The notes beneath the pieces were generated by a model, which made no database searches, was not told the DNA's origin, and worked only from the letters and a program-made list of their open reading frames with translations. Below, in pieces: positions 15,541 to 43,556 of a stretch of 45,865 nucleotides of DNA. The stretch covers positions 1-45,865 of IMG/VR virus record IMGVR_UViG_3300031673_000106; one strand, 5' to 3'. Each line of letters begins with the position of its first letter. Position 1 is the first letter of the stretch. The position numbers and the translations under genes were made by a program. Source of the stretch: a virus.

Positions 15541-16649
15541 CAGTGCCTCTTGTAGTATGTCAGAACGTCGGTTATGCCCGCCGGTATGCCCTGTGGGATC
15601 GTGATCACGCCCGCACCAGGGATCGCTGTGACCTCGAACACCTGACTGTCTTTCCTTCTATAAGCGAACGCGGCCAGCACTTTGCATGCCTCCTTGATAT
15701 CCCCCGGCACTGCCGCGCTGTAGGCCCAATCGCCGTTGACGCTCACGAAACAGTCGGTGTCAAACGTCCACGAGTAGGTGCTGTCCGTCTTCAGCCGGAT
15801 GCCGAAGTAGGGCGGCCCCAGGTTGCGCGGGTGCAGCCAGTATTCCGTGTTCGGGATCGGGGTTCCTTCAGGCACGACCGTGTGCGTGCCCGTCCCGTTG
15901 TCGGTCAGGGTGATCGCCGTGCCTGCCAGGGCCAGTGCAGCGGTTGCAGCCACTTGGATGCCCGGCGAAACGAGCAGGATGGCATAGTACACCGTCCCCT
16001 CCACCAACGGCGCGGGCGGGTCGTGGGTGGTCGAGGTCACCGTCAGCGGCGTGGCCGCTATCAGCGCATCCCAGACCGCAGTGCTGGCCAGCGTCAGCCT
16101 ATCGGCAGCAAATGCCGGCACATAGGTTGTGCCCGCCTGAAAGTCGCCGTTGGTCAGCGTGTTCCCCGTCACCAGATCGCCATCCACCAGCAGCAGGCGG
16201 CGGTCCTCGTCGCTCAGCGCGTCGCGCCCGTAGTAGCGGATGTCCTCCGCTGCCTCAAAGGTGCGGTTGGTCTGCGACTCGATATAGGTCTGTGCTGCGC
16301 TGATGGCGTCGGTGAGCAGCGCCGTGTCCGCGTCCTCCCGGGTGATGGTGTGCGTGCCCGTCCCGTCGTCGGTCAGGACGATAGGCGTGGGCACGGCAGC
16401 GAGTGCGCTGGTGGCGGCAAGCTGGATCACCTGGTCAGCGCCCAGGATCACATAGTAGACCGTGCCCTCCACCAGCGGTGCAGGCGGGTCGGCCAGCGTC
16501 GATGCCACCGTGACCTCTGTCCCCGTCTTGAGCGTGTTGCGAAACGGGACGCTCGCCAGGGTCAGCGTGTCGGCCCCGAAGGCCGGCGTATAGGTGTCGG
16601 TGTCCTCCAGGTCCAGGTAGTCTCTAAGTTCGCTCAGGCTGATGTACAT
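15540..16649 (-). CDS. Head-tail connector (gp6-like) with two copies of an inserted beta domain
   Basis: The N-terminus 'YISLSELRDYLDLED' and helix 'DAISAAQTYIESQTNRTFEA' (115-133) are hallmarks of the phage connector family; the C-terminal half 'PGDIKEACKVLAAFAYRRKD' continues it. Two related inserts of about 86 residues interrupt it: residues 17-104 and 174-260. They share 'DPPAPLVEGTVYY', 'LTDxGTGTHT' and 'PAFxADxLTLAS'. Such modules resemble Ig-like beta repeats of phage surface proteins. They would project from the neck and may bind host or glycans. ATG 16649 follows AGGAGCAGG. Confidence 0.78.
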   Translation of the reverse strand: MYISLSELRDYLDLEDTDTYTPAFGADTLTLASVPFRNTLKTGTEVTVASTLADPPAPLVEGTVYYVILGADQVIQLAATSALAAVPTPIVLTDDGTGTHTITREDADTALLTDAISAAQTYIESQTNRTFEAAEDIRYYGRDALSDEDRRLLLVDGDLVTGNTLTNGDFQAGTTYVPAFAADRLTLASTAVWDALIAATPLTVTSTTHDPPAPLVEGTVYYAILLVSPGIQVAATAALALAGTAITLTDNGTGTHTVVPEGTPIPNTEYWLHPRNLGPPYFGIRLKTDSTYSWTFDTDCFVSVNGDWAYSAAVPGDIKEACKVLAAFAYRRKDSQVFEVTAIPGAGVITIPQGIPAGITDVLTYYKRH

Positions 16650-17695
16650 GCCCTGCTCCTATGTGCCCATGTCTGATTAGGTGAATAGACCGTCAAGTCC
16701 GGCCAGCCGCCCACGTCTGCTGGATCGTCGATGATGCCGCCCGTCCCATTCTGCACATCTGCCACAATCCGCGCATCTACCATATCCCGCTGTGGCAGCG
16801 TGGCCCCAGCATTGGCGAGAACGTCAGCCAACGCATCCATCGCGCTCAGTGGTTCGCCACCATACAATGGAGGGAATGGTACATCCTCCAGGTGGTCTTC
16901 AACTGTGCCCGGATAACCGTCAAGCAAGCGCAGCGGTGGCCCATCGTATCCATCGATCTCCGTGTCGTGCTCGTAGACCTGCACCACGCCGTCCTCATAC
17001 CACCAGATGTAGTTCTGGAGGCGGTCTGTTTCCGCTGCCGGGAATCCCTGATAGTTGCCGATGAAATTGACGCGGGTATCTGGCCAACGCGGATCGCCAC
17101 TACAGTGAAACAGGATGCCCTCGCCGTACATCACGCAGTTCACCACGTCAGCCCGCCCAGAGGCCACCAGCGGGTTGCGCTGGTTGTTGTGGCCAAACAG
17201 GCAGCGCTCGAACAACACGCGATCCGCGCCGCCGCCCACTAGGGCACCCATGCTGTGCGGCCCCTTGCTGTGTCCAGCATCGTTCAATCCCTCGCTGATA
17301 ATGCAGTGGCGGATCACTATGTCGTGGATATTGCCGTACAAATCCAGGTTTTCGTCCACGGCCCACGACAGGCTGCAGTGATCGATCAACACGCGCCGCG
17401 CCGGGGCGTTGATCTGTAGTGCATCCACCTCATCCGTGGCTCCTGGCCTCAGTCGCAGGTACCGCAACGTCACATCTGCCGCCTCAATCGCAATGTAGCC
17501 GCCCTTCACGCAGATCCCGCCACCAGGTGCAGTCTGCCCACGTACTTCGATGTTCGGATTGCGGATCATGATTTGGGACACCAGCTCAACTGTCCCCGCC
17601 ACATCGAATACCACTACTCGAAATCCGCTCGCTTCCAGTGCTGCTCGGAGACTGCCCGCGCCACTATCGTTCAGGTTAGTGACACGGTAAATCAA
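16634..17695 (-). CDS. Pectate lyase-like right-handed beta-helix protein
   Basis: From TTG 17695 (overlapping the preceding TGA) the protein has 353 residues: 'YRVTNLNDSGAGSLRAALEA', 'NIEVRGQTAPGGGICVKGGY', then the motif 'IDHCSLSWAVDENLDLYG' (His106, Asp114, Glu115) typical of PL1-type pectate lyases, and 'HSKGPHSMGALVGG' and 'FERCLFGHNNQRNPLV'. The upstream in-frame extension to 17815 reads antiphase to the LamG gene and is unlikely. The start is uncertain because no clear ribosome site is seen. No signal peptide, so it is probably virion-attached, cutting polyuronate-type surface polysaccharide. Substrate is inferred only. Confidence 0.8.
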   Translation of the reverse strand: MIYRVTNLNDSGAGSLRAALEASGFRVVVFDVAGTVELVSQIMIRNPNIEVRGQTAPGGGICVKGGYIAIEAADVTLRYLRLRPGATDEVDALQINAPARRVLIDHCSLSWAVDENLDLYGNIHDIVIRHCIISEGLNDAGHSKGPHSMGALVGGGADRVLFERCLFGHNNQRNPLVASGRADVVNCVMYGEGILFHCSGDPRWPDTRVNFIGNYQGFPAAETDRLQNYIWWYEDGVVQVYEHDTEIDGYDGPPLRLLDGYPGTVEDHLEDVPFPPLYGGEPLSAMDALADVLANAGATLPQRDMVDARIVADVQNGTGGIIDDPADVGGWPDLTVYSPNQTWAHRSRACTSA

Positions 17696-18474
17696 TTTGG
17701 GATGTCGGTCCAGCTCTGAGCATAGAGTTTCGCTAGCCAGCGCCCCATCGTGTTCATGTTCGCCACGGATAGTGCGCTGCCGTGCATCGTCATCTCTGCC
17801 AGATCCATGCCACAATACGCTTCGGCCCCGATGCGCAGTAGGGCAGCAATGGCGAATCGGTTGAGCGTGATGGTATTCGCGTCAAAGGCCAGGTCGGTGC
17901 CCTGCTGGACGCCATCCTTGTAGATGCGGATGGTCGTCCCATTGAACCACCACGCTAGAATGTGCAGATTTGTGTCTATTGTCCCGCGACCCTCGCTGGG
18001 TCCAGTGCCGCCATCATCCCGGCGCGTGCTCCATAGTGTTGAGGGCGTGCCGGTCATTATCATCTCCTGCCATATCGGCGTGTTGTTGCCAGAATTGCCG
18101 GCACCCCACAGCACCTGCGTCGTTGCCACCGAGGCGACCTTGGCGACGAGGAACACCGTCGCAGGCTGATCGTCACCGGTCAGCGAGAGCGCCACCCCGT
18201 TGGCCGTCAGATATTGGCTGCTGGCAATCACCGTGCGGATAACTGGATGGCCATTGATTAGATCGCCCGCGCCACTCTGAAAAGTGGGGCTGTTGACCGG
18301 CGTGATGTCGTTTCCTGCTGGCGACAGATCCGCGATGGTGGCCGTCAGCGCATCGCCATCGCTTTTGCCCGCGATTCTCCGCGCCGCGAGCCAGAGCACG
18401 AGGCCGGGAATGTCGCTCGGCCTGAAGCCCCCGCGCGGGCAGAGCAGCAGCAGATTGCGAATCGTCTGATTCAT
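17692..18474 (-). CDS. LamG/concanavalin-like lectin domain protein
   Basis: A 260-residue protein with 'PSDIPGLVLWLAARRIAG', 'ATIADLSPAGNDITPVNSPT', 'INGHPVIRT' and 'LNRFAIAALLRIGAEAYCGM', a jelly-roll pattern (LamG type) common in virion-attached sugar-binding proteins. The short hydrophobic N-terminus (MNQTIRNLLLLCPRGG) is not a clear signal peptide. ATG 18474 follows AGGGGAA. Coupled to the lyase downstream, it may deliver or anchor the enzyme to glycans. Confidence 0.75.
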   Translation of the reverse strand: MNQTIRNLLLLCPRGGFRPSDIPGLVLWLAARRIAGKSDGDALTATIADLSPAGNDITPVNSPTFQSGAGDLINGHPVIRTVIASSQYLTANGVALSLTGDDQPATVFLVAKVASVATTQVLWGAGNSGNNTPIWQEMIMTGTPSTLWSTRRDDGGTGPSEGRGTIDTNLHILAWWFNGTTIRIYKDGVQQGTDLAFDANTITLNRFAIAALLRIGAEAYCGMDLAEMTMHGSALSVANMNTMGRWLAKLYAQSWTDIPN

Positions 18475-19742: not shown

Positions 19743-20651
19743 CTATGTCACCACGGGTTCGAGCAAGGCCGACACGTCGCCGCCCAGGTCGCCGTAGTAG
19801 TTCTCAGCCAGGGCACATGCCGTCGCCCCGATGCCTGTTGCCTGTGCCGCCGTACCGCCCGCCATGTTGCCCATGACGATGCCGGTCGCCGTGTCGGCCA
19901 GGTGGATCGCCGCCTCCGCCGTCGCCGCGATGTTGTAGATGCGGTTGTCGAGGACGCAGCAGTTGGTGACCACGCCCGCCCCGCCGATGCACACCGTCCC
20001 AAAGTCGCCGATCAGGATGTTGCGCCGGATGATGTGCCCCTCGCCGGTGCCGGAGAGGTTGATAAAGTGCGTGTTACTGGCATTCAGATCGCAGCAGTAG
20101 CAGTCCTCGATCGTGATGTAGTCGATGCCGGCGGCAGGCTGTACCCAGATGGTCGCACAGAACGTGCCGTCTCCGGTGAATCGACAGTCGCGCAGGGTGA
20201 AGCCGCACGCATTCACGTCGATGGCTGCCGTCACGTCGGCGATTCCGGCCACGAAATGCATGTGCTGCACGGTGATGTCCGCCGCATCCACGTCCATGTC
20301 GGCGAGCACGTCCGTGTCAAAGGTGACGGTCGGCATCAGCGAGTTCTCGCCCACACCGATGATGGTAATGCCCTGGCAGTCCAGGTCCAGACCGGCTGCC
20401 GCGCTCACGACTTCGGCGTGCCCCGGCAGGCAGATGATCACGTCGCCCGCCGCCGCCGCACATGCGCTCACCGCATAGTCCAGCGTGGCGAACGGGCTGT
20501 CCGGGTTCTGCCCGTAGCCCGCCGCATCACTGGATGCCGTGTTGGTGCTGTCCACGAACCAGATGTCCGCCGGGTAGTCGTCGATGCTCACGTAGCCAAA
20601 GACGCCGCCCGGTTGGTGCTGCATGAAAAGTGGTGAACGTCTCTTCACCAT
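19743..20651 (-). CDS. Right-handed beta-helix (pectin lyase-like fold) structural protein
   Basis: A 302-residue protein. After 'IWFVDSTNTASSDAAGYGQN' and 'PFATLDYAVSACAAAAGDVI', regular coils follow: 'ITIIGVGENSLMP', 'ITVQHMHFVAGIADV', 'FTLRDCRFTGDGTFC', 'ITIEDCYCCDL', 'HIIRRNILIGDF' and 'VTNCCVLDNRIYNI', about one per 20-24 residues. This is the ladder of a parallel beta-helix. Thirteen cysteines are present, several as CC. No catalytic set is evident. ATG 20651 follows AAAGGAG. Likely a trimeric surface fibre or glycan-binding/degrading protein. Confidence 0.75.
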   Translation of the reverse strand: MVKRRSPLFMQHQPGGVFGYVSIDDYPADIWFVDSTNTASSDAAGYGQNPDSPFATLDYAVSACAAAAGDVIICLPGHAEVVSAAAGLDLDCQGITIIGVGENSLMPTVTFDTDVLADMDVDAADITVQHMHFVAGIADVTAAIDVNACGFTLRDCRFTGDGTFCATIWVQPAAGIDYITIEDCYCCDLNASNTHFINLSGTGEGHIIRRNILIGDFGTVCIGGAGVVTNCCVLDNRIYNIAATAEAAIHLADTATGIVMGNMAGGTAAQATGIGATACALAENYYGDLGGDVSALLEPVVT

Positions 20652-20700
20652 TGCCTAGTCTCCTTTGCCTGTCCTGGGTTGTCCATTGTCAGGCCATAGA

Positions 20701-20734
20701 GGGGGCGGGCGTAATCGTAATGCCGCCCGCCCCC
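20701..20734 (-). terminator. Strong 11-bp hairpin after the gene at 20747
   Basis: GGGGGCGGGCG pairs with CGCCCGCCCCC around a 12-nt loop, beginning 13 bases after the TAA of the upstream minus-strand gene. No U-run follows, so it may act as a partial terminator or an mRNA-stabilising 3' end that raises capsid-region mRNA over downstream genes. Confidence 0.55.
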
Positions 20735-20746
20735 CGGCGAATCCAG

Positions 20747-21229
20747 TTACACGATTGCCGTCGCGGGCGTCGCTTGCTTATAGGCCGTCTGGATGTAGTA
20801 GACGGCGCTCATATAGTTGGCTTGGCCCGAGGTTGCGACAGTTCCACCCAGGCAGTGGTAAGTGCTCAACTGCGCCGCGATATCTGCCGGGTCGATCTCG
20901 ATCACGACCAACTGATCGGTGGCCCCTGCCGTGCAGGCCATCGTGGTCGCTGCCGTCTGTGCCACCAGCGTATCCGTGGCACTGATGTCGGCATTCTTCC
21001 ACCACCGTGCGGTGAAAGTGATCGCCGTCGCACAAGCGGCGATGCTAATGCCCGTCACCGGGACGATGGTCGTGGCATGCGTGACCGCCTGCTGATAGTG
21101 CGCGACGATCCATACCTTGATCGCGTCCGTCAGGTCGATCACGTCGAACGTTACGCCACCATTGGTCGTGACAGCCCCAGCGGTCGCGCTTACGATCTTA
21201 AAGTTCTCGGGAAGTGTGATGTTGCTCAT
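20747..21229 (-). CDS. Head decoration-like structural protein
   Basis: A 160-residue beta-rich, Ala/Thr-rich protein (LPENFKIVSATAGAVTTNGG, then 'VVIEIDPADIAAQLSTYHC'). It immediately follows the capsid gene and precedes a strong hairpin, the usual place of a highly expressed decoration protein. ATG 21229 follows AGGAGTGACATAAA. A capsid stabiliser is inferred by position; no family signature. Confidence 0.6.
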   Translation of the reverse strand: MSNITLPENFKIVSATAGAVTTNGGVTFDVIDLTDAIKVWIVAHYQQAVTHATTIVPVTGISIAACATAITFTARWWKNADISATDTLVAQTAATTMACTAGATDQLVVIEIDPADIAAQLSTYHCLGGTVATSGQANYMSAVYYIQTAYKQATPATAIV

Positions 21230-22616: not shown

Positions 22617-23426
22617 TCATGCCTCCATAGTCAGTCTGTTTTTGAGAAGTTGCATGCGCATCCGTCCCTTGCCTGCCGCAGACGCCGCCGACGTGTCGGC
22701 CTCTGGCTCTGCCTCTGGAGGTATCGAGTCGTTTGCTGTATCGTCCTGCGCGGGCATGGGAATGCCCAGCGCCTTGAACGCTCGTATATGGTTCTCGGTT
22801 AGATTTCGTGGCTCCATCGGCTGAACCGTGATCGTGTCACGGAACAAGGGCCACCGCATGATCTCGCCATCTGCCCGCTTTACTACACCCTTGGGGTCCG
22901 CGTGTGAGCTGGTGCCAAGCGTGCCGTCATCAAACCAGCCCAACTCCTCCAGCCATTGGACATATTGATTGCGCCTGTTGAGCACCCGCTCGACAAAGAC
23001 GCCCTTGTCATCTACGCGGGCCGTCTTCCAGTCCACAACGCCAAGCAGTTCATCGCCTAGCTCGCCCTGCCCATGCTCCCAATCCTCATACAGCATGCCG
23101 GCCTTGGTGTAAGCGCTCTCCAGGTCTGTCTCTGCCGTGAAGAACTCGCCAAGCGAGCCGTCTTGGTTCTTGTTCTCGCTGGCGATGCCCTCCAGGTCGC
23201 GCCCGCCGAATAGGACGATGTAGTTGCCCACGCGCAGCTCGTCATCAGTGCGCGAGATGGCCTTGAGGGCGTTCGCCGCCTTCGACTCTGGCTCCCCGGC
23301 GTGCTTGCGCCAGGTGGACAGGCATGTGGCGACTGCCTCATCCTGTTTGTCGCCCTCTTCCTTGCGAACGGGCACGCAGGCTGCCATCCACTTGTCCTTG
23401 TCATCATAGTCGCTAGGGTTTGGCAT
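22617..23426 (-). CDS. Prohead maturation protease (S78-type)
   Basis: A 269-residue protein. Residues 1-45 (ACVPVRKEEGDKQDEAVATC, 'LSTWRKHAGE') form a small scaffold-like domain. The protease core has 'NYIVLFGGRDLEG', 'LYEDWEHGQG' with the candidate catalytic His118, and 'GTLGTSSHADPKGV' with Ser173/174, then 'MRWPLFRDTITVQPMEPRNL'. The C-terminus is acidic then basic (GKGRMRMQLLKNRL) and may be self-cleaved. ATG 23426 follows GGGAGGG. It cuts the capsid delta domain during maturation. Confidence 0.85.
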   Translation of the reverse strand: MPNPSDYDDKDKWMAACVPVRKEEGDKQDEAVATCLSTWRKHAGEPESKAANALKAISRTDDELRVGNYIVLFGGRDLEGIASENKNQDGSLGEFFTAETDLESAYTKAGMLYEDWEHGQGELGDELLGVVDWKTARVDDKGVFVERVLNRRNQYVQWLEELGWFDDGTLGTSSHADPKGVVKRADGEIMRWPLFRDTITVQPMEPRNLTENHIRAFKALGIPMPAQDDTANDSIPPEAEPEADTSAASAAGKGRMRMQLLKNRLTMEA

Positions 23427-23445
23427 GTTGCCCTCCCAAAACGCA

Positions 23446-23495
23446 AACGCCGCCTATGCCTGGGGATGTTGCCATTCCCCGGCGTAAGCGGCGTT
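23446..23495 (-). terminator. Nested hairpin upstream of the protease gene
   Basis: Outer arms AACGCCGC (23446-23453) and GCGGCGTT (23488-23495) enclose an inner imperfect stem (GGGGATG / CATTCCCC). On the minus strand it is followed by TGCGTTTT and then the ribosome site of the protease. It may be an attenuator or RNase-processing structure between the accessory genes and the capsid block. The outer arms match the hairpin at 749-771. Confidence 0.55.
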
Positions 23496-23525
23496 CTACA
23501 GTGTAGACTGCCAGTTAGGTTGTTG

Positions 23526-23762
23526 TTAGCCCTCTGTCTTACATTGCACTGCTTCAGGCAAGGGCCACCAGCCGGTCACTCTGCTCTTGACAGGCCCTAT
23601 AGCCTCTTTCCAGCGGTATGCATTCTCTTCGCCGTCATATTGTAGCAAAGCTTCCTTCGTGCCTATCAGGCCCCACGCGCATTCAGTACGCACCCAGACC
23701 AACTGCCCGACTGGCGGTAGCGCCTCCTCCGGGTCAATCCACCTTGCTTCTGGTACTTCCAT
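23526..23762 (-). CDS. Small DUF551-like phage protein
   Basis: A 78-residue protein with 'ARWIDPEEALPPVGQLVWVR' and an ending 'VTGWWPLPEAVQCKTEG'. The W...LPP...V and GWxPLPE elements resemble DUF551 proteins of phages, whose function is unknown. ATG 23762 follows GGAGTGCTGAG, a leader repeated before 25079. Confidence 0.65.
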   Translation of the reverse strand: MEVPEARWIDPEEALPPVGQLVWVRTECAWGLIGTKEALLQYDGEENAYRWKEAIGPVKSRVTGWWPLPEAVQCKTEG

Positions 23763-29118: not shown

Positions 29119-29337
29119 CTATCCTGCTATCAGGGCTTCTCTCTCTCCCGCCCAGTTGTGACACACGAAGTTGTCACACCCGTCCCCGTCCTCAGGCCAG
29201 CGGTTCGTGCCGTCTATCTTGCAGAATCCATCGCCCACGAACACCTCTGCTGGAATCTCCGCTCCATCACCGCCGTTGTAGGCGTAATGAATGCAGAAGT
29301 CGCATACTTCAGACCGACAGGTTGAGCATCTCTTCAT
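29119..29337 (-). CDS. 72-residue Cys-rich protein
   Basis: MKRCSTCRSEVCDFCIHYAY opens with C-x2-C and C-x2-C, followed later by 'GFCKIDGTNRW', 'GDGCDNFVCHNW'. The pattern of paired cysteines suggests a zinc-ribbon or knuckle. Small proteins of this type are common in phage genomes next to terminase genes. ATG 29337 follows GAGGGGTGATG. Function unknown. Confidence 0.65.
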   Translation of the reverse strand: MKRCSTCRSEVCDFCIHYAYNGGDGAEIPAEVFVGDGFCKIDGTNRWPEDGDGCDNFVCHNWAGEREALIAG

Positions 29338-29421
29338 TCATCACCCCTCTGCGTGGGGGCGGTTCAGGAGCCCACCCGTCCCCGCCCCGCACGCATCAAA
29401 AAGGAGGAGAGATGATGACGC

Positions 29422-29748
29422 CTACCGTCTCCACGGCATTCCGTACCGCGTGATATACGGGTCTGGGCCCCAGCCCTTGCCATAGTGCGCAGGGTCTTCC
29501 TCGGGACCGAATACCTCTGTGTGCCCGAATACTTCTGTGTGCCCGAATATGGTCCCGTTGTCTTGGGGTACACCGACCGACATTGTGCCGCTATTACAGG
29601 GCGCACAACACCACTCAAAGCTGGCCAGCGCCTCATCACTCAGGCTGTCCCACGCCTCAAGCTCAGCCCTCAGTTCGCGCGGCTTGACCCACCACGCACG
29701 ATAGGCCAGCGCACCGTACATCAGCCCACACAAGAATGCTGCAATCAT
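29422..29748 (-). CDS. Small membrane-anchored protein with hexapeptide repeat
   Basis: ATG 29748 follows GGAGGGTGAG. Residues 1-18 (MIAAFLCGLMYGALAYRAWW) are a transmembrane anchor, followed by a charged cytoplasmic helix 'KPRELRAELEAWDSLSDEAL', 'CCAPC' and the repeat FGHTEV-FGHTEV-FG. A longer in-frame start at 29832 lies before the ribosome site. Function unknown. Confidence 0.6.
   Translation of the reverse strand: MIAAFLCGLMYGALAYRAWWVKPRELRAELEAWDSLSDEALASFEWCCAPCNSGTMSVGVPQDNGTIFGHTEVFGHTEVFGPEEDPAHYGKGWGPDPYITRYGMPWRR
29513..29548. repeat. Two tandem 18-bp units
   Basis: Units 29513-29530 and 29531-29548 differ at one base and encode the duplicated FGHTEV of the membrane-anchored protein. 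Likely a recent slippage duplication that keeps frame. Confidence 0.8.
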
Positions 29749-32224: not shown

Positions 32225-32439
32225 GCTGCTTCCCACCGGATCAGATTGCGAATGTGGATCGCGGTGTAGAGTAGGACGCCGGGCAGCAAGCCCCACTGTT
32301 GCGTCCAGATAGCATAGATGATCCACAACACTTGATTGGCAATGCCGACGCGCGGCCCCCACTTGGTTTTGTTGCCCATCAGCCAAAGCATCACGGCGCT
32401 TGTGCCACTCAGCACCCAGGACAAGGCTTCCGGTGTCAT
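32221..32439 (-). CDS. Small membrane protein with two or three helices
   Basis: A 72-residue protein: 'LSWVLSGTSAVMLWLMGN', 'RVGIANQVLWIIYAIWTQQW' and 'GLLPGVLLYTAIHIRNLIRW'. The GNKTKWGP loop and Trp spacing occur in many phage membrane proteins of unknown role. Start and stop overlap both neighbours, so it is fully coupled to the radical SAM gene. Confidence 0.65.
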   Translation of the reverse strand: MTPEALSWVLSGTSAVMLWLMGNKTKWGPRVGIANQVLWIIYAIWTQQWGLLPGVLLYTAIHIRNLIRWEAA

Positions 32440-33266
32440 CCTACATACTCCTCAAATGGAATCTTGAATCGCACGCTGAACCAGAACAGGCGGGACCAGT
32501 AGCGCGTATAGCGGCGCAGTTCACGCTCTGTCCAATGCTCGCCCACAAAGCTATTCTTGTGCAGTGCGTCGAGCGGCTGATAGCGCATAGGATCAGGGAA
32601 TGATCCTGTTTTCCATATCTCGCTCAATCGGTATAGCGCATCCTCTGGCGTGTCATTGTAGCCAATCAGGACATAGACGAAGACGCGATCAGCGGGGAAC
32701 CCGGCATGCCGTAGCATTTCATAGGCACGCCGAAATGGGCGCTCATAGGTCATGTCGTCCCATGCCAATCGCGCAATGCAGTCTAGCTCAGCCAGTCGTT
32801 CCGCATGGTGCTTGGTCAACAGCCGCGCATCCAGCCCTTGATTGAAATCGATGCCTTCGAGCAGCTTGAGCCTGTCCACTACATTGTCGAAGTGTGCGCG
32901 GCTGCATGCGAGCAGGTTGTTGTCGCATATGATGGGACGCACGGGCCAGTCGTCCAGCTCTACCAAGTCGCCCTCTATCTTCGGGATCGCGCAAAATCCA
33001 CACCGCCGGATGCAACCCCGGCTGGTGAACGTCGCCGCTGGGTTGTGCCAGGGTAGCGCATCCACCGCCATCCCGTTGCATTCGGCCACGTCTGCCAGGT
33101 AGTCGGGCATCAGCTTCACCGCTGGCCCACCTGCCCTGACACGGTAGCCCATCTCGCGCAACCACACGGCACGGCTGTAGGCCTGGGGCAAGTCCCACGT
33201 GAACACGACGGACAGCAGCGCCGTGTTGCCGTCAATGTGCTCGATGGGGCGCTTACTCCACGTCAT
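32436..33266 (-). CDS. Radical SAM protein
   Basis: A 276-residue protein. 'FTSRGCIRRCGFCAIPKIEG' contains the C-x3-C-x2-C iron-sulphur motif (Cys85, Cys89, Cys92). Residues 1-70 (SVVFTWDLPQAYSRAVWLRE, 'GPAVKLMPDYL') resemble a degenerate B12-binding-type domain. 'IICDNNLLACSRAHF' and 'FVYVLIGYNDTPEDALYRL' are barrel strands of the family. Phage radical SAM proteins of this type lack known substrates; modification of nucleotides, tRNA or a peptide is possible. It is coupled to a tiny membrane peptide upstream by ATGA. Confidence 0.85.
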   Translation of the reverse strand: MTWSKRPIEHIDGNTALLSVVFTWDLPQAYSRAVWLREMGYRVRAGGPAVKLMPDYLADVAECNGMAVDALPWHNPAATFTSRGCIRRCGFCAIPKIEGDLVELDDWPVRPIICDNNLLACSRAHFDNVVDRLKLLEGIDFNQGLDARLLTKHHAERLAELDCIARLAWDDMTYERPFRRAYEMLRHAGFPADRVFVYVLIGYNDTPEDALYRLSEIWKTGSFPDPMRYQPLDALHKNSFVGEHWTERELRRYTRYWSRLFWFSVRFKIPFEEYVG

Positions 33267-35518: not shown

Positions 35519-36478
35519 CTAGAAGTTGAGCTTGTCAACTCTCAGCTCCAGCTCACACAGCTTGAGGTATTGCGGCTGGAACCATAGCGGCCACGTCCAA
35601 CGTCCATTCTCAAATCGCTGCTTCTGCATGCTCATGATCAGCAGGCCCTCAGTCACGGGAAGTTGGCGCCCGTCAATGTCCACAATCCCCTCACGGGGCT
35701 CGGTGAGCCAAGGACGCCACAGGCTGAAATACTTGTCGGCCGTCTGTTCGATGCTGCTGGCCCATTGTGCATCCCACAGGCCGGGCGTCTTGTTCTCGCG
35801 GCTGTCTACCTCTCGCCGCGCCTGGACCGCCACGGCAGCCGGGCATCCAACACGCTTCGCAAGTTCTTTGCAGCGGTGCGCGGCCTCTGTTACCTGCTTC
35901 ATCCGGTCGGCCTGCGTAGGGATGGGGATAAGCTGAATGTAGTCAAAGCACATCAGCGTCGGGCGCACACCGTAATCGTCAGCCATGCTTTCAATGGCGG
36001 CGAACACCGCATCTGGATACATGCGCGGCGACTTGGCATTGGTGCGGGCCAAGCTATCGCCGATAATCCAGATCGGCATGCCCGCCCGCTTCATCGCTTG
36101 GCGCTCTACCATATCGAGGTCCACCTTACCCCAGGCGAGATCGCTCACTGTGTAGTTCTCGCTCACGTCAAGGACAGCATTGATTTCCTCCGTGACCTGT
36201 TCCCACGTCACATACACCACCGCCTCGGTATCTACCGTACCCCGCATCTGGATGCGCCTGGCCTCCGCCCGTGCAAGGTAGGCCAGCATCGATGTTTTTC
36301 CATGCCCTGGTCGTGCCACGAACACCACCATGTCGCCCGGGTGAAAGGGGATCACCTTGGCATCCACCGCCGGGATGCCGAATGGCACGCCGGGTGCATC
36401 CTTCAGGTGCTTGGCCCAGGCCACTTGTTCCGCTGCCAGTTCTGCGGGTGAGTGTACGAGCTGGCTGTAGTCGATCAT
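35519..36478 (-). CDS. Replicative DNA helicase (DnaB/RecA fold)
   Basis: A 319-residue protein from ATG 36478, sharing TGATG with the initiator gene. 'VVFVARPGHGKTSMLAYLAR' is Walker A (55-63), 'VVYVTWEQVTEE' carries the catalytic Glu region, 'LMCFDYIQLIPIP' is Walker B (Asp179) and 'AVAVQARREVDSRE' is motif H3/H4. The DnaB N-terminal collar domain is missing, so it is a short phage-type helicase, probably loaded by the neighbouring initiator. Confidence 0.85.
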   Translation of the reverse strand: MIDYSQLVHSPAELAAEQVAWAKHLKDAPGVPFGIPAVDAKVIPFHPGDMVVFVARPGHGKTSMLAYLARAEARRIQMRGTVDTEAVVYVTWEQVTEEINAVLDVSENYTVSDLAWGKVDLDMVERQAMKRAGMPIWIIGDSLARTNAKSPRMYPDAVFAAIESMADDYGVRPTLMCFDYIQLIPIPTQADRMKQVTEAAHRCKELAKRVGCPAAVAVQARREVDSRENKTPGLWDAQWASSIEQTADKYFSLWRPWLTEPREGIVDIDGRQLPVTEGLLIMSMQKQRFENGRWTWPLWFQPQYLKLCELELRVDKLNF

Positions 36479-37425
36479 CAATTGCGTATCCTTATCACCT
36501 TGCTGCCTGTCTCTAGTGTCCCGTCGCGTATCTGTCGCGCCGCGTAAGTAAGCATGTCCACATAGCTGTCTTGGAAGGGCGTATTCCACTTGTGGTGTTG
36601 TAGGTGCCATTCGCCCCACTCTTTGTCCGGCAGCACTTCGTGTGCCTGCAGAAGCTGCTTGACAGACACGCTATGCTCCCCCCCCAGTTTCTCGAATTGC
36701 TTCAGCCACCCTTGCCCTTGCGTTTTCTTCAGCGACATTGCGTCTTGCCCCGTCAACTCACAAAACGCCTTCACCACCGGGAAGACGGGGTGCAATCCCT
36801 CAGCGCCAAGCATGGCCCAGTCTGGTATGCCACGTTTCTTGTGCAGGTCACTGGCGGCCACGATATCCAACACGATGTCGCCCGTCTGCTTGAACTTCTC
36901 CGCGTCACCGTTATCGGGTATCCCCTCACTCCCATCGTGCCAGTCTATCTCATCAAGATCGCCAGGAGGAACCGACGCGGAAGCGTCGTCTTCTTCTCTC
37001 TTACCTTCTCTCTTCTTTCTCTCTTCATGTGACTTTCTGTTACAGTGAGAGTCACTTTCTGTTACAGCACTGCTACTTTCTGTTACAGTGGAATCGGGGG
37101 TGTCACTCTCTGTTACAGCATCCAGACGTACCTGGATCTGCACCTTGCCGGTGTCACGGTAAGTATGTGGTCGGTTGCGCAATCCTGGTGTGGTGTCTTC
37201 CAGATAGCCGACATCACATAGCTTCCCGAGCCACCGCACTACCGTCTGCCGGCTCATGCCCAGTTCGTTCGCTATCGTGTCCATCGACGCTTGGCACACG
37301 CCGCGCTCGCCCTGGCAATAGCGCCATACGCGCCCATAGACGCTAGCGCCTACCACGCCCACAGTTTGGATCACCACGTCGAATAGGGGAGTAAAGTTCC
37401 CCATCTCGGTCGTAAAGTTAGCCAC
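36478..37425 (-). CDS. Replication initiator (O-like, winged helix) containing the probable origin
   Basis: A 315-residue protein from GTG 37425. Residues 28-75 (VYGRVWRYCQGERGVCQASM, 'IANELGMSRQTVVRWLGKL') form a winged helix that would bind DNA. Residues 100-150 are low complexity, with VTES repeats and 'HEERKKREGKREEDD', encoded by the iterons and purine tract. The C-terminal half (LKKTQGQGWLKQFEKLGGEH, 'SYVDMLTYAARQI') is likely the helicase-loading part. Organisation parallels lambda O: initiator gene with internal origin, followed directly by the helicase gene. Confidence 0.78.
   Translation of the reverse strand: MANFTTEMGNFTPLFDVVIQTVGVVGASVYGRVWRYCQGERGVCQASMDTIANELGMSRQTVVRWLGKLCDVGYLEDTTPGLRNRPHTYRDTGKVQIQVRLDAVTESDTPDSTVTESSSAVTESDSHCNRKSHEERKKREGKREEDDASASVPPGDLDEIDWHDGSEGIPDNGDAEKFKQTGDIVLDIVAASDLHKKRGIPDWAMLGAEGLHPVFPVVKAFCELTGQDAMSLKKTQGQGWLKQFEKLGGEHSVSVKQLLQAHEVLPDKEWGEWHLQHHKWNTPFQDSYVDMLTYAARQIRDGTLETGSKVIRIRN
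36989..37118. other. Probable replication origin: four iterons plus a purine/pyrimidine tract
   Basis: ACTTTCTGTTACAG occurs at 37032-37045, 37054-37067 and 37075-37088, and as ACTCTCTGTTACAG at 37105-37118; starts are 22, 21 and 30 bp apart, near whole helical turns. Beside them, 36989-37026 is a pyrimidine tract with one interruption (purine on the minus strand), and CGACGC-GGAA-GCGTCG (36973-36988) is a hairpin. Three copies encode VTES; the first lies in a different frame (CNRKS), so DNA rather than protein is conserved. This mirrors the lambda origin. Confidence 0.75.
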
Positions 37426-37558
37426 TGTCTCGCCCCTGTTCCTTACGTCTTCGTATCATAAGCTGAAGCGCATAGCCCCGCATCTGAGCATCTGTGATGC
37501 CCAGCACGCAGCGTCTGAACAAATCCCATACGTTTTTTGGCGGCAACTTCGGGGGCAT
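37418..37558 (-). CDS. 46-residue basic protein
   Basis: ATG 37558 shares TGATG with the primase stop; the TAA overlaps the initiator's GTG region. MPPKLPPKNVWDLFRRCVLG...QLMIRRRKEQGRDSG is a short helical, strongly basic protein. Position between primase and initiator suggests a replication accessory factor. No family recognised. Confidence 0.55.
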   Translation of the reverse strand: MPPKLPPKNVWDLFRRCVLGITDAQMRGYALQLMIRRRKEQGRDSG

Positions 37559-38490
37559 CAGTTCACCACCTTGGCCCACTTGACAAAATCCGCGAACTCC
37601 TTGGGCTTGCCTCCCTTGAGAAAGAAGTCGTCTGGCTTTACCGGGAATGTACAGACACGCACGTCCATCTTGCTCTTGGTAGCAATCTCTTTGCCCAATG
37701 CCATGGCCTTATCCTGCACATCTGGATCAAGTGCCACGTATAGCCGCTTGACATTCTCAAAGTGGGGTAGCCAGCGCATGTCAAAGCCAGATGCGCCAAG
37801 AATGCCCACCGCCGGCATAACATGCGAACTTACGACGATACTCTTTTTCTCTCCCTCCACCACCAGGAGCGTGTCATGTTCTTTGGTCCACCGGGCATTG
37901 AAAAGCAGCTTCCCGGGCAGCCCCGCCATGTGTGGTCGGTAGCGATCACCATTGGTAGCGTCTATCAGTCGATGGCGGATATTGAGCAGCTTGGTCCATG
38001 TGCTGTCAAAAACGGGGATAGTATAAGACGCTTGGCGGGGAGCGGTCGGGCAGTTGTAGCACACGCCGAGTTTGTACTCGTCTATCGCCGAATCATAGAT
38101 GCCTTGCGAATGCCACCATTCCCGGTCGGAGTCGTCGAGCAGTTTGTGATACTTGATGTGGTCCGTGCATTCCAGCATCCGTTCGAGTGCGGTAAGCTGG
38201 CGCTGCATCTGTTCGCGCTCCCGTCTGGCGCGGCGCGCCTCTGCTTCTATCCACAGTAGGCGCCGCTCCTCTGCCGAGAGCCTGTTATCTTCCTCGTCAA
38301 GCCATCCCGTATGGTCGCCTGGTCGACAGAAATAGCCTCCGTCTTCGAACAACACGAACCCGTCTGTTTCTGCTTTGTGGCAGATAGGACAAGGGCCATT
38401 CGCCTCATGGTGATTCTTGATTCTGAGTTCAAGCCCCGGCCAGCGTCGTTGCGCCAGCGCGACGGCTTCCTCAATTGATGCTAATTCCAT
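37558..38490 (-). CDS. DNA primase (zinc finger plus TOPRIM)
   Basis: A 310-residue protein. 'GPCPICHKAETDGFVLFEDG' and 'YFCRPGDH' give a zinc site (Cys34, Cys37, Cys55, His60) as in CHC2 primases. A coiled-coil linker (RRARREREQMQRQLTALERM) leads to the catalytic part. 'TLLVVEGEKKSIVV' (TOPRIM Glu) and 'RLYVALDPDVQDKAM' (DxD) bind the metal ions. It is compact compared with DnaG and lacks a helicase domain; the helicase is a separate gene nearby. Confidence 0.88.
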   Translation of the reverse strand: MELASIEEAVALAQRRWPGLELRIKNHHEANGPCPICHKAETDGFVLFEDGGYFCRPGDHTGWLDEEDNRLSAEERRLLWIEAEARRARREREQMQRQLTALERMLECTDHIKYHKLLDDSDREWWHSQGIYDSAIDEYKLGVCYNCPTAPRQASYTIPVFDSTWTKLLNIRHRLIDATNGDRYRPHMAGLPGKLLFNARWTKEHDTLLVVEGEKKSIVVSSHVMPAVGILGASGFDMRWLPHFENVKRLYVALDPDVQDKAMALGKEIATKSKMDVRVCTFPVKPDDFFLKGGKPKEFADFVKWAKVVN

Positions 38491-38521: not shown

Positions 38522-39328
38522 TTAAGCTAGTGCATGTTCCTCTTGCATATGGCACGGTTGGCAGAACGATACAAGGTTGTCCAGTCTATTTGCTTCCCGA
38601 TAGTTTTCGTTCTCTCCAGGCACATAGCCGAACTCACAGAATGGCTTGATGTGGTGAACAGATAGGGCTTGGTCACAATCTTGTTGGTGGATACCGCATC
38701 TCTGACAAGTGAACTTGTCGCGGCGCCGTGCCTTTGCCCGCTGCTTGTACCAGTTTGGACCATAATACTCTGCACGTCCGCCCTTCCACTGATTGCTGTT
38801 TTCCCCGCATAACTCTTGGGAGCGCCAACGCCCATAGCACTCTCGACTACAAAAACGGGATAGACCATTGTCGGCTTTCCACTTGCCGACAAGATATATC
38901 TTGCCGCACCATGCGCATTCCTGCTCTCTGCCGCCCCAGTGCGGGGAGTTTGATCCTGTCCAGTTCTCAGATTGCCATGTTGCCTGGCATTCCCGGCTAC
39001 AGAACCTGGTCGCGTCTTGCTTGCTCTCTATGATGATATAGGTGTGATGGCACTGAATGCATTTTGCCTCTATACGTTTGCGAGACGCCTTTCCAAAGCA
39101 CTCGGAGGAGCAATAGTGCCCGACATCCTTTTCTATCTTCCAGCGGGGAACGTAAAAGGATGTGCCACAAATGAGACATGCCCTCGTTTCGCCGAGGCTA
39201 GCGGCATTGTCTTGGCATTCCTTGGAGCAATACTTGCTATGGTGTTGGCGGCTGGCAACGACATTATATGTCTTGCCGCAATGCTGGCAGAGAAGGTTCA
39301 CTCTACCTCGCCTTGGTGCACGCGCCAT
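38522..39328 (-). CDS. HNH endonuclease with four tandem zinc knuckles
   Basis: A 268-residue protein from ATG 39328 behind GGGAGGA. Four repeats of C-x2-C-x15-18-C-x3-C (Cys14/17/34/38, 51/54/73/77, 90/93/110/114, 138/141/160/164) share 'RFCSRECxxxW'-type ends. The C-terminal HNH has 'FTCQRCG', 'LSVHHIKPFCEFGY', 'ANRLDNLVSFCQPCH' (His225/226, Asn251, His260). No RuvC motif is seen, so it is not IscB. It is expressed from its own promoter through a structured leader RNA. A homing-type or RNA-associated nuclease is possible. Confidence 0.85.
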   Translation of the reverse strand: MARAPRRGRVNLLCQHCGKTYNVVASRQHHSKYCSKECQDNAASLGETRACLICGTSFYVPRWKIEKDVGHYCSSECFGKASRKRIEAKCIQCHHTYIIIESKQDATRFCSRECQATWQSENWTGSNSPHWGGREQECAWCGKIYLVGKWKADNGLSRFCSRECYGRWRSQELCGENSNQWKGGRAEYYGPNWYKQRAKARRRDKFTCQRCGIHQQDCDQALSVHHIKPFCEFGYVPGENENYREANRLDNLVSFCQPCHMQEEHALA

Positions 39329-39344
39329 AATTCCTCCCAAACGC

Positions 39345-39496
39345 AAAAGACCCCATACCGCGACACGTGTCTCCGGTTGCCTAGACCAAGAGACGGGGAC
39401 TTGCGTCCACGTGTGCGATATGGGGACCTTTGCCCACATGCGTATGGGATTGTGACCGGAGACGGAAAAGTCCCCGCACACTCTTGGTCTAGGCTT
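39345..39496 (-). ncRNA. Structured RNA upstream of the HNH gene (attenuator or knotted ncRNA)
   Basis: The predicted transcript starts near 39496. P1 pairs GCCTAGACCAAGAG (39494-39481) with 39392-39379, 14 bp perfect; P2 pairs GGGGACTT (39475-39468) with 39402-39395; a hairpin lies at 39448-39433; GTCTCCGGT (39463-39455) pairs with 39377-39369 outside P1, making a pseudoknot. A 17-bp stem with one G-U and one bulge pairs 39425-39409 with 39368-39351 and is followed by UCUUUU, an intrinsic terminator just before the HNH ribosome site. P1/P2 and the terminator cross, so they may be alternatives. Confidence 0.65.
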
Positions 39497-39502
39497 GTCC
39501 AG

Positions 39503-39531
39503 ATCATATCACGATTCCTCTGCCGTGTCAA
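39503..39531 (-). promoter_or_regulatory. Consensus sigma-70 promoter of the RNA-HNH module
   Basis: On the minus strand TTGACA (39531-39526) and TATGAT (39508-39503) are 17 bp apart. It begins 7 bp before... the stop of the upstream gene ends at 39539, so the promoter fills the intergenic edge exactly. Transcription would start two or three bases before helix P1. Confidence 0.82.
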
Positions 39532-42879: not shown

Positions 42880-43338
42880 CTAGGGCCAAACTTCCCGGCG
42901 CACAATGCGGCCCACGTGGGACTCTATCACACCAAACCGCTCACCCAATTCTCTCTGCGAATGCCTGCCGGTGGTGTAAAGCCTGCGGATCTCGCGGACT
43001 TTCTCTTCCGTTAGTTTGGCACGGCCGTTCTTTTCGCCACGCCGATTCGCGCGTCGTCCCTTTTCCACCGCATCTGCGATATTCTCAAGCTGGCTCGCCG
43101 CAAACAAGTGGGCTGGATTGACACATCGCGGATTGTCGCATGTATGGCAAACGCACATGCCTTCAGGTATCGGCCCATGCTCTAGCTCCCATGCGATCCG
43201 GTGAGCCAAAACCATGCGCCTGCCCAGCCTGAATCGCCCATAGCCCTGCCTGTGCTGCACGGCTTTCCAGGGCCAGCATTCATCTTCTCCGCGTATATCT
43301 ATCTTGGACCAGTACCGCCCTTCCCAGTCTCTTGCCAT
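42880..43338 (-). CDS. HNH homing endonuclease with helix-turn-helix tail
   Basis: A 152-residue protein from ATG 43338 (AAAGGAACATC upstream). 'DECWPWKAVQHRQGYGRF', 'VLAHRIAWELEHGPIPEG' and 'VCHTCDNPRCVNPAHLFAAS' form the HNH core (His65, Asn74, His77) with structural cysteines 64/67/72. 'NGRAKLTEEKVREIRRLY' and 'SQRELGERFGVIESHVGRIV' are a DNA-binding helix-turn-helix. Typical free-standing phage homing enzyme, likely mobile. Confidence 0.85.
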   Translation of the reverse strand: MARDWEGRYWSKIDIRGEDECWPWKAVQHRQGYGRFRLGRRMVLAHRIAWELEHGPIPEGMCVCHTCDNPRCVNPAHLFAASQLENIADAVEKGRRANRRGEKNGRAKLTEEKVREIRRLYTTGRHSQRELGERFGVIESHVGRIVRREVWP

Positions 43339-43556
43339 GTGATGTTCCTTTCCCAAAAGTCGTTGGTGCAGATTCCGAAAAATGTGGTATGATCTCTGTA
43401 AGGTTGAAGGCCACGAACCCGCAAACTCACCGTTGACTGGGTTGTCTGGGCCTCACCTGCGGCGCTGGGGCCGCTGACTTTCCAAGAGGGCCGGCCCAGC
43501 ACGGCCCCACATCGCCCTGGTCCTGGTAGCCCACGCTCGCCCCGTGGGCTACTGTG
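43339..43556. other. 218-bp gene-free region with hairpins and a plus-strand promoter-like site
   Basis: No convincing frame lies here. On the plus strand TTGGTG (43374-43379) and the extended -10 element TGG-TATGAT (ending 43394) could start an antisense transcript; the 19-bp spacer is long. GC-rich stems follow (GCGGC-loop-GCCGC near 43460; the strong hairpin at 43526-43552). It may hold a short RNA or the landing zone of the HNH gene. The tRNA T-loop consensus is not met. Confidence 0.4.
43526..43552 (-). terminator. 10-bp hairpin after the gene at 43557
   Basis: GTAGCCCACG and CGTGGGCTAC pair around a 7-nt loop starting four bases after the TAG. No U-run follows on either strand, so it may be an mRNA 3' end stabiliser or weak terminator. 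Confidence 0.5.

Follow-up and report, generated by a model that had tools for sequence, protein, structure and literature searches.

Several described systems place a structured RNA at the start of a transcript or directly ahead of a gene. Attenuators and terminator-type riboswitch leaders are promoter-proximal, and combine helices that form early with a terminator-like stem and a U-run just upstream of the regulated gene's ribosome site. Among phage leaders, the C4 RNA of phages P1/P7 and the CI leader RNA of P4 control termination ahead of an operon through mutually exclusive complementary segments, and the put RNAs of phage HK022 are leader RNAs at the transcript start. Type III toxin–antitoxin loci, which encode the RNAs ToxI, CptI and TenpI, are laid out as promoter, pseudoknot RNA, terminator and gene, all read from one promoter, and in HEARO/IscB loci a structured omega-RNA lies directly 5′ of an HNH-encoding gene. 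Phage morons are single-gene units that carry their own sigma-70 promoter and reside between phage genes. The leader described here resembles each of these in the respect just named, and differs from each in others.

The leader lies in the IMG/VR record IMGVR_UViG_3300031673_000106, the whole 45,865-base stretch of which is referred to as the window; it is a tailed phage, with recognised portal, major head protein and large terminase. On its minus strand the window also encodes a phage protein with a Radical-SAM domain (32436–33266) and a pectate-lyase-like protein that is probably a tail-spike (16634–17815). A second IMG/VR contig, IMGVR_UViG_3300031565_000136, matches the window exactly wherever the two were compared; it holds the sole other copy of the HNH module in IMG/VR, and thus provides no comparative information. 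The same contig was the only one returned when close phage relatives were sought via the primase. A nucleotide search of isolate phages with the 1-kb module gave no match, and searches of phages and plasmids with single leader elements gave chance matches only.

Promoter and leader RNA of the window

A promoter, a structured leader and an HNH gene follow one another on the minus strand of the window. Their features are given below in order of transcription, and double-sided changes are counted against L200 (IMGVR_UViG_3300031274_000006), a direct relative of the window leader.

39503–39531, minus strand: sigma-70 type promoter TTGACA-17-TATGAT, score 11/12, with TG before the −10 box (TTGACA at 39531–39526, 17-nt spacer, TATGAT at 39508–39503)
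39345–39496, minus strand: structured 5′ leader RNA, with an inferred start at about 39496, 7 nt after the −10 box
39481–39494, minus strand: P1a, GCCTAGACCAAGAG, forming a perfect 14-bp helix with P1b; three double-sided changes
39468–39476, minus strand: P2a, CGGGGACTT, forming a 9-bp helix with P2b; four double-sided changes
39455–39463, minus strand: PKa, GTCTCCGGT, forming the 9-bp crossing helix with the 3′ strand PKb; seven double-sided changes among its nine pairs
39415–39431, minus strand: Ta, pairing with the 3′ strand Tb at 16 of 17 positions to form the terminator-like stem; in L200 18 of 18 positions pair, with five double-sided changes
39394–39402, minus strand: P2b, AAGTCCCCG, pairing with P2a
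39379–39392, minus strand: P1b, CTCTTGGTCTAGGC, pairing with P1a
39369–39377, minus strand: PKb, ACCGGAGAC, one nucleotide after P1b, pairing with PKa
39345–39361, minus strand: Tb, 3′ strand of the terminator-like stem, pairing with Ta and ending in UCUUUU
39332–39342, minus strand: ribosome binding site GGGAGGA with its preceding spacer, read directly
38522–39328, minus strand: payload gene for a 268-aa HNH endonuclease of putative free-standing homing type (PF01844, phrog_1271, homologues)

A first-pass annotation of the window had proposed a consensus promoter, a perfect 14-bp P1, an 8-bp P2, a 9-bp crossing helix and a terminator stem of about 17 bp that ends in UCUUUU before the ribosome site of the HNH gene. 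The promoter, P1, the crossing helix and the terminator stem were all recovered at the positions listed above; the P2 helix is likewise present, but extends over 9 bp rather than 8.

P1 begins at +3 relative to the inferred start, and its 14 bp constitute the sole perfect inverted repeat of at least 14 nt within 160 nt in the 45.9-kb window. The minimum free energy (MFE) of the window leader has a z-score of −4.95. Summed over P1, PK and T, 34 pairs are observed, compared with a maximum of 24 across 1000 dinucleotide shuffles, none of which reached the observed value, and a scan of both strands of the window found the P1+PK+T arrangement once. Strong folding (z −5 to −6.8) is also seen in intergenic stretches on the minus strand at 29265–29425, 20625–20785 and 23385–23545, and the one at 20.7 kb has a terminator-like look.

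The segments that make up P1, P2, PK and T are disjoint, and the four helices are therefore not alternative pairings of the same bases. The MFE structure of the full window leader contains the terminator stem and not P1; in nested energies, which take no account of pseudoknots, the P1/P2 form, at −70.1 kcal/mol, comes close to the T form, at −73.2 kcal/mol, and in growing-chain folding P1/P2 dominates until T is made. An imperfect 24-nt direct repeat (71%), the only such repeat in the leader, lies at 39390–39440, which gives P2a a second possible partner in the earlier copy (39422–39431).

Conservation and subfamilies of the leader

The search for relatives of the leader began with the upstream DNA of 77 HNH relatives, for which nine diverse HNH proteins were too divergent as an alignment query and a C-terminal alignment worked. 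Upstream of one relative, L028, a 13-bp inverted repeat was found, and the parts follow one another as TATAAT, P1a TGTCTAGGCGGAT, PKa, Ta, P1b ATCCGCCTAGACA, PKb, Tb, a U-rich tract and the start codon, which is the part order of the window in unrelated sequence. A descriptor of this order, run on all loci, led to L036, where the element precedes a different small HNH gene, and the P1 base TGTCTAGG/CCTAGACA is common to L028 and L036. A scan for this octamer pair returned 95 viral stretches, many of them by chance, about 25 of which have a promoter, PK and T; the layout common to these contigs, besides the window and L200, is promoter–P1a–PKa–Ta–P1b–PKb–Tb–(U-run)–start codon. A covariance model, R1, added L047, which has an imperfect P1 octamer and an HNH relative of the window protein downstream. 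R1, whose E-values are rough, detects L028, L036 and L047, and all three were first found without the exact octamer pair being required. As the member count rests on exact octamers, the family is under-sampled and the conservation of the octamer is overstated.

All leader relatives outside the window are metagenomic contigs, and each genome carries one element, including contigs of 82 and 124 kb. The leader pattern was absent from 301 genomes in the phylum of a Chloroflexi MAG, and R1, in a run that had no positive control, found nothing in 54 genomes in the phylum of a Caldisericia MAG. The L028 protein had two weak relatives in a search of genome contigs, and tblastn with the payload gave distant relatives only. 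A long hairpin upstream of an HNH relative (L052, 1785–1960; 13-bp perfect base, z −4.3) has a different layout and was not counted, and a tandem array of the palindrome TGTCTAGGCCTAGACA in a GC-rich viral contig (L154, 1–200) is neither a member nor a leader. An Rfam int-alpA RNA in a leader-bearing contig (L106, 3240–3305) points to a temperate element.

For statistics, 28 non-redundant members were picked by the promoter motif and the two P1-base octamers, with PK and T not used as a criterion. L113, L133, L144 and L162 (minus strand), which match promoter and octamers and have weak PK and T, were left out of the structural table and kept in the statistics; the descriptor missed PK in L118, L187 and L149. 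Across the 28 members, duplex energies compared with those of shuffled partners give z −7.4 for PK and −17.4 for T (0 of 200 shuffles as good), and P1 extends past the octamers by 2.42 bp versus 0.51 (sd 0.13) with shuffled partners. In alignment A5, a plain MAFFT alignment of 23 members, 78.7% of cells are paired versus 39–45% for slid partners, a control that leans in favour of the structure because this was drawn from one alignment row, and 121 cells carry double changes versus 57 (sd 6) for shuffled and 45–54 for slid partners. Compensatory changes, with which the first-pass annotation had proposed to check the RNA, are thus abundant in its relatives, in L200 as in the 28-member set and A5. 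Judged from these comparisons of sequence, the leader RNA is a conserved structured family with compensatory changes.

The placement of the element is also regular. In 21 of the 26 main-subfamily members the distance from the end of the −10 box to P1 is 5 nt, and the open reading frame starts 29–52 nt after P1b in 25/28 members (50 nt in the window), a short distance that argues for a cis-acting leader and not a free small RNA. A TTTT run is present after T in 17 of 26 family members, compared with 10% in controls; the U-run is absent in L107, L115, L122, L129, L162 and L167. The Shine–Dalgarno sequence lies inside Tb in L117, L134 and L145. No strongly conserved unpaired motif was found in the leader except a U-rich linker in many members.

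The window and L200 stand somewhat apart from the other members. L200 keeps P1, P2, PK and T, with 3+4+7+5 = 19 double-sided changes relative to the window, and the two have equal promoter spacing and a common ACAAGCCTAGACC start. Both carry GCCTAGAC at P1a and GTCTAGGC at P1b, while the main subfamily has GTCTAGG at P1a and CCTAGAC at P1b, which is the window/L200 octamer with its strands exchanged around a CUAG core. R1, built on the main subfamily, gave no match to the window up to E 10, which indicates two subfamilies tied by architecture and the strand-exchanged octamer rather than by model score; their common descent is likely. An anchored search of 82 stretches for more window-type leaders found the twin of the window and L200 only.

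Another reading takes the P1 base GTCTAGG/CCTAGAC chiefly as a DNA operator, or as another DNA site at the start site, and the RNA structure as secondary. The octamer is the only strongly conserved sequence and lies at a fixed distance from the −10 box, and its strand exchange between subfamilies is more readily understood for a DNA site than for an RNA. However, P1, PK and T show covariation in pairs beyond the octamers, each genome has one pair of sites rather than an operator set, and the octamer was itself the search motif, which makes a predominantly DNA-level role improbable.

Genes behind the leader

The protein encoded behind the window leader, P0001 (268 aa), has repeated Cys zinc-knuckle motifs and a PF01844 HNH domain, and no RuvC or IscB family was matched in Pfam, in agreement with the zinc knuckles and HNH without RuvC noted at first pass. 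Its relatives (25–43% identity) are encoded by haloviruses, an Enterococcus phage and plasmids, frequently by genes that stand free between phage genes; this placement, together with an HNH domain joined to a zinc-knuckle array, is that of homing endonucleases, and we read the family from its sequences as putative free-standing homing-type HNH endonucleases. No allele without the HNH gene was found, and the one similarity that PADLOC reported, to ZorE, is weak and lies in the HNH domain. The window also contains a second HNH gene, at 42880–43356 (minus strand), which is of another type (PF13392 HNH_3) and has no leader. Behind the payload gene, at 35519–38490 (minus strand), follows a replication block with a primase-like protein, a replication-initiation/HTH protein and a DnaB-like helicase (PHROGs), and the leader may therefore also head an early operon.

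The first-pass annotation had treated the RNA and the HNH protein as one module, recalling HEARO/IscB loci in layout only; in a dedicated system of that kind the RNA would be a guide or cofactor of the protein. The RNA does lie directly before an HNH gene in the window, L028, L047 and L117. However, the L200 leader precedes a ParB/Dam-type methyltransferase gene and no HNH gene, and family matches assign to the genes behind the wider-family leaders four TnpB-like proteins, several HNH types including HNH_3, LAGLIDADG, T5orf172/GIY-YIG, two methyltransferases, LPD29, DUF6876 and unknowns. Conversely, in a survey of roughly 56 HNH zinc-knuckle loci, an element was detectable before the homologous gene only in L028 and L047, apart from the window. 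With the leader before unrelated genes and most HNH homologues lacking a detectable element, the comparison with HEARO/IscB fails functionally; the 5′ end of the RNA moreover coincides with P1, leaving no room for a 5′ guide, and RuvC is unmatched. Of all the readings considered, a dedicated RNA–HNH system is given the least credence, and the idea of such a module did not survive.

We also give very little credence to a type III toxin–antitoxin-like locus, in which the pseudoknot RNA would be a trans-acting antitoxin or small RNA, ahead of an attenuating terminator and a toxic gene. The order of promoter, pseudoknot RNA, terminator and gene matches the type III layout, and many payloads are nucleases; against this, the leader has no tandem RNA repeats apart from the single 24-nt, 71% repeat of the window, no payload resembles ToxN, CptN, TenpN or AbiF in Pfam or PADLOC, and the payload families are unrelated and include methylases and transposon nucleases.

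In related phages the leader is retained and the gene behind it differs. In L106, L129 and L130 the leader lies at the same place, on the opposite strand, beside a head-morphogenesis gene (its other neighbour in L106 and L130 is Neck1 by PHROGs), and the three payload products have no mutual resemblance. The pairs L134/L145 and L109/L142 have their DNA in common from the upstream flank to +118–120 and part at the U-run or start codon, and the pairs L106/L130 and L106/L137 have little in common besides promoter and leader. In at least eight members, the unit lies on the strand opposite to both flanking genes, some of which are head or neck genes. As far as sequence allows, the leader unit resembles a moron whose cargo can be exchanged behind a standard, regulated leader, and since the leader is kept while the payload changes, a signal acting on it would not come from the payload protein.

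A putative conditional terminator among known RNAs

Taken together, the leader is probably a payload-independent conditional attenuator of a moron-type single-gene cassette, in which P1/PK and T compete; we infer transcription, termination, this competition and the existence of a signal. The strong promoter would start transcription at P1 or no more than 3 nt away from it, and P1, with P2, would be the first helix to close in the emerging RNA. PKb, directly after P1b, would then pair back into the P1 loop to form PK, and Tb, made last, would pair with Ta in the P1 loop to give a long hairpin, which in about two thirds of members has a U-run behind it, immediately ahead of the ribosome site. 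T would act as an intrinsic terminator, in some members also burying the Shine–Dalgarno sequence, and P1/PK folding would delay or block T, so that the leader would conditionally attenuate the following gene.

A terminator-like stem with a U-run (UCUUUU in the window) directly before the ribosome site and start codon is the mark of an intrinsic terminator, and both strands of P1 and PK have been transcribed before Tb. In nested folding, P1 is part of the MFE structure in 28/28 nascent RNAs, a result partly built in by the use of the P1-base octamers as search motif, versus 7/28 full-length RNAs (lost in 21/28), a comparison that ignores pseudoknot energy. Kinetic competition, with P1/PK yielding to T, would be a simple explanation of this difference.

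Alternatively, the leader could be a compact pseudoknot in which P1, PK and T coexist in the order ABCABC, serving as an mRNA stabiliser, insulator or protein-binding platform and not as a switch. The segments of P1, PK and T are disjoint in every aligned member, Ta often abuts P1b, which would permit stacking of P1 on T, and P1, at or near +1, would shield the 5′ end. Against coexistence speak the U-runs after T in 17/26 members and the geometry inferred for two leaders: in L115, no nucleotides separate PKa from Ta or PKb from Tb, such that a 9-bp PK would bridge an 18-bp T without linkers and all pairs presumably could not form at once, and in the window a 4-nt linker would need to span the 23 bp of P1/P2. 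A coexisting knot is thus unlikely, though worth serious consideration, and we lean towards a switch.

If the leader is a conditional attenuator, uncultured phages would share an undescribed RNA control before cargo genes, including TnpB and homing nucleases that need limited expression, and the leader would offer a handle on the timing of cargo-gene expression. It would also serve as a search motif for new cargo, detectable even before genes of no known kind, and as a natural example of three crossing helices in one RNA, which could act as a co-transcriptional switch. Tentatively, and with more doubt than confidence, the leader might represent a new phage RNA class, a portable, payload-independent "expression lock" of three crossing helices that allows single-cargo exchange, RNA-guided and homing nucleases included, behind one regulated promoter; it may itself be the recombination joint for this exchange.

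The first-pass view that the RNA is undescribed is upheld by Rfam 15, which gave no family match at the elements of the window and sixteen other member loci, and full-text searches of open-licence papers turned up no account of such a leader. HEARO/IscB loci differ in their RuvC+HNH protein, Rfam HEARO match and obligate RNA–protein pairing, whereas the payload here is unspecific, without RuvC, and the RNA has no 5′ guide and no Rfam match. Type III toxin–antitoxin RNAs are set apart by tandem antitoxin repeats and a ToxN-like toxin, in contrast to the unrelated payload families, without repeats or such a toxin, found here. The C4 and P4 CI leaders differ in that each segment here pairs with a single partner and nothing points to a trans-acting processed RNA, and C4 antisense RNA gave no Rfam match. 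By their description, put RNAs act on RNA polymerase over long distances, whereas here a terminator-like stem ends the element. Compared with attenuators and riboswitch leaders, no conserved unpaired pocket is seen, the gene behind the leader is exchangeable and not of one pathway, and P1 and T share no strand, the three helices crossing one another mutually. What sets the unit apart from phage morons, for which no such leader is known to us, is the conserved structured RNA between promoter and gene, which stays in place when the gene is swapped.
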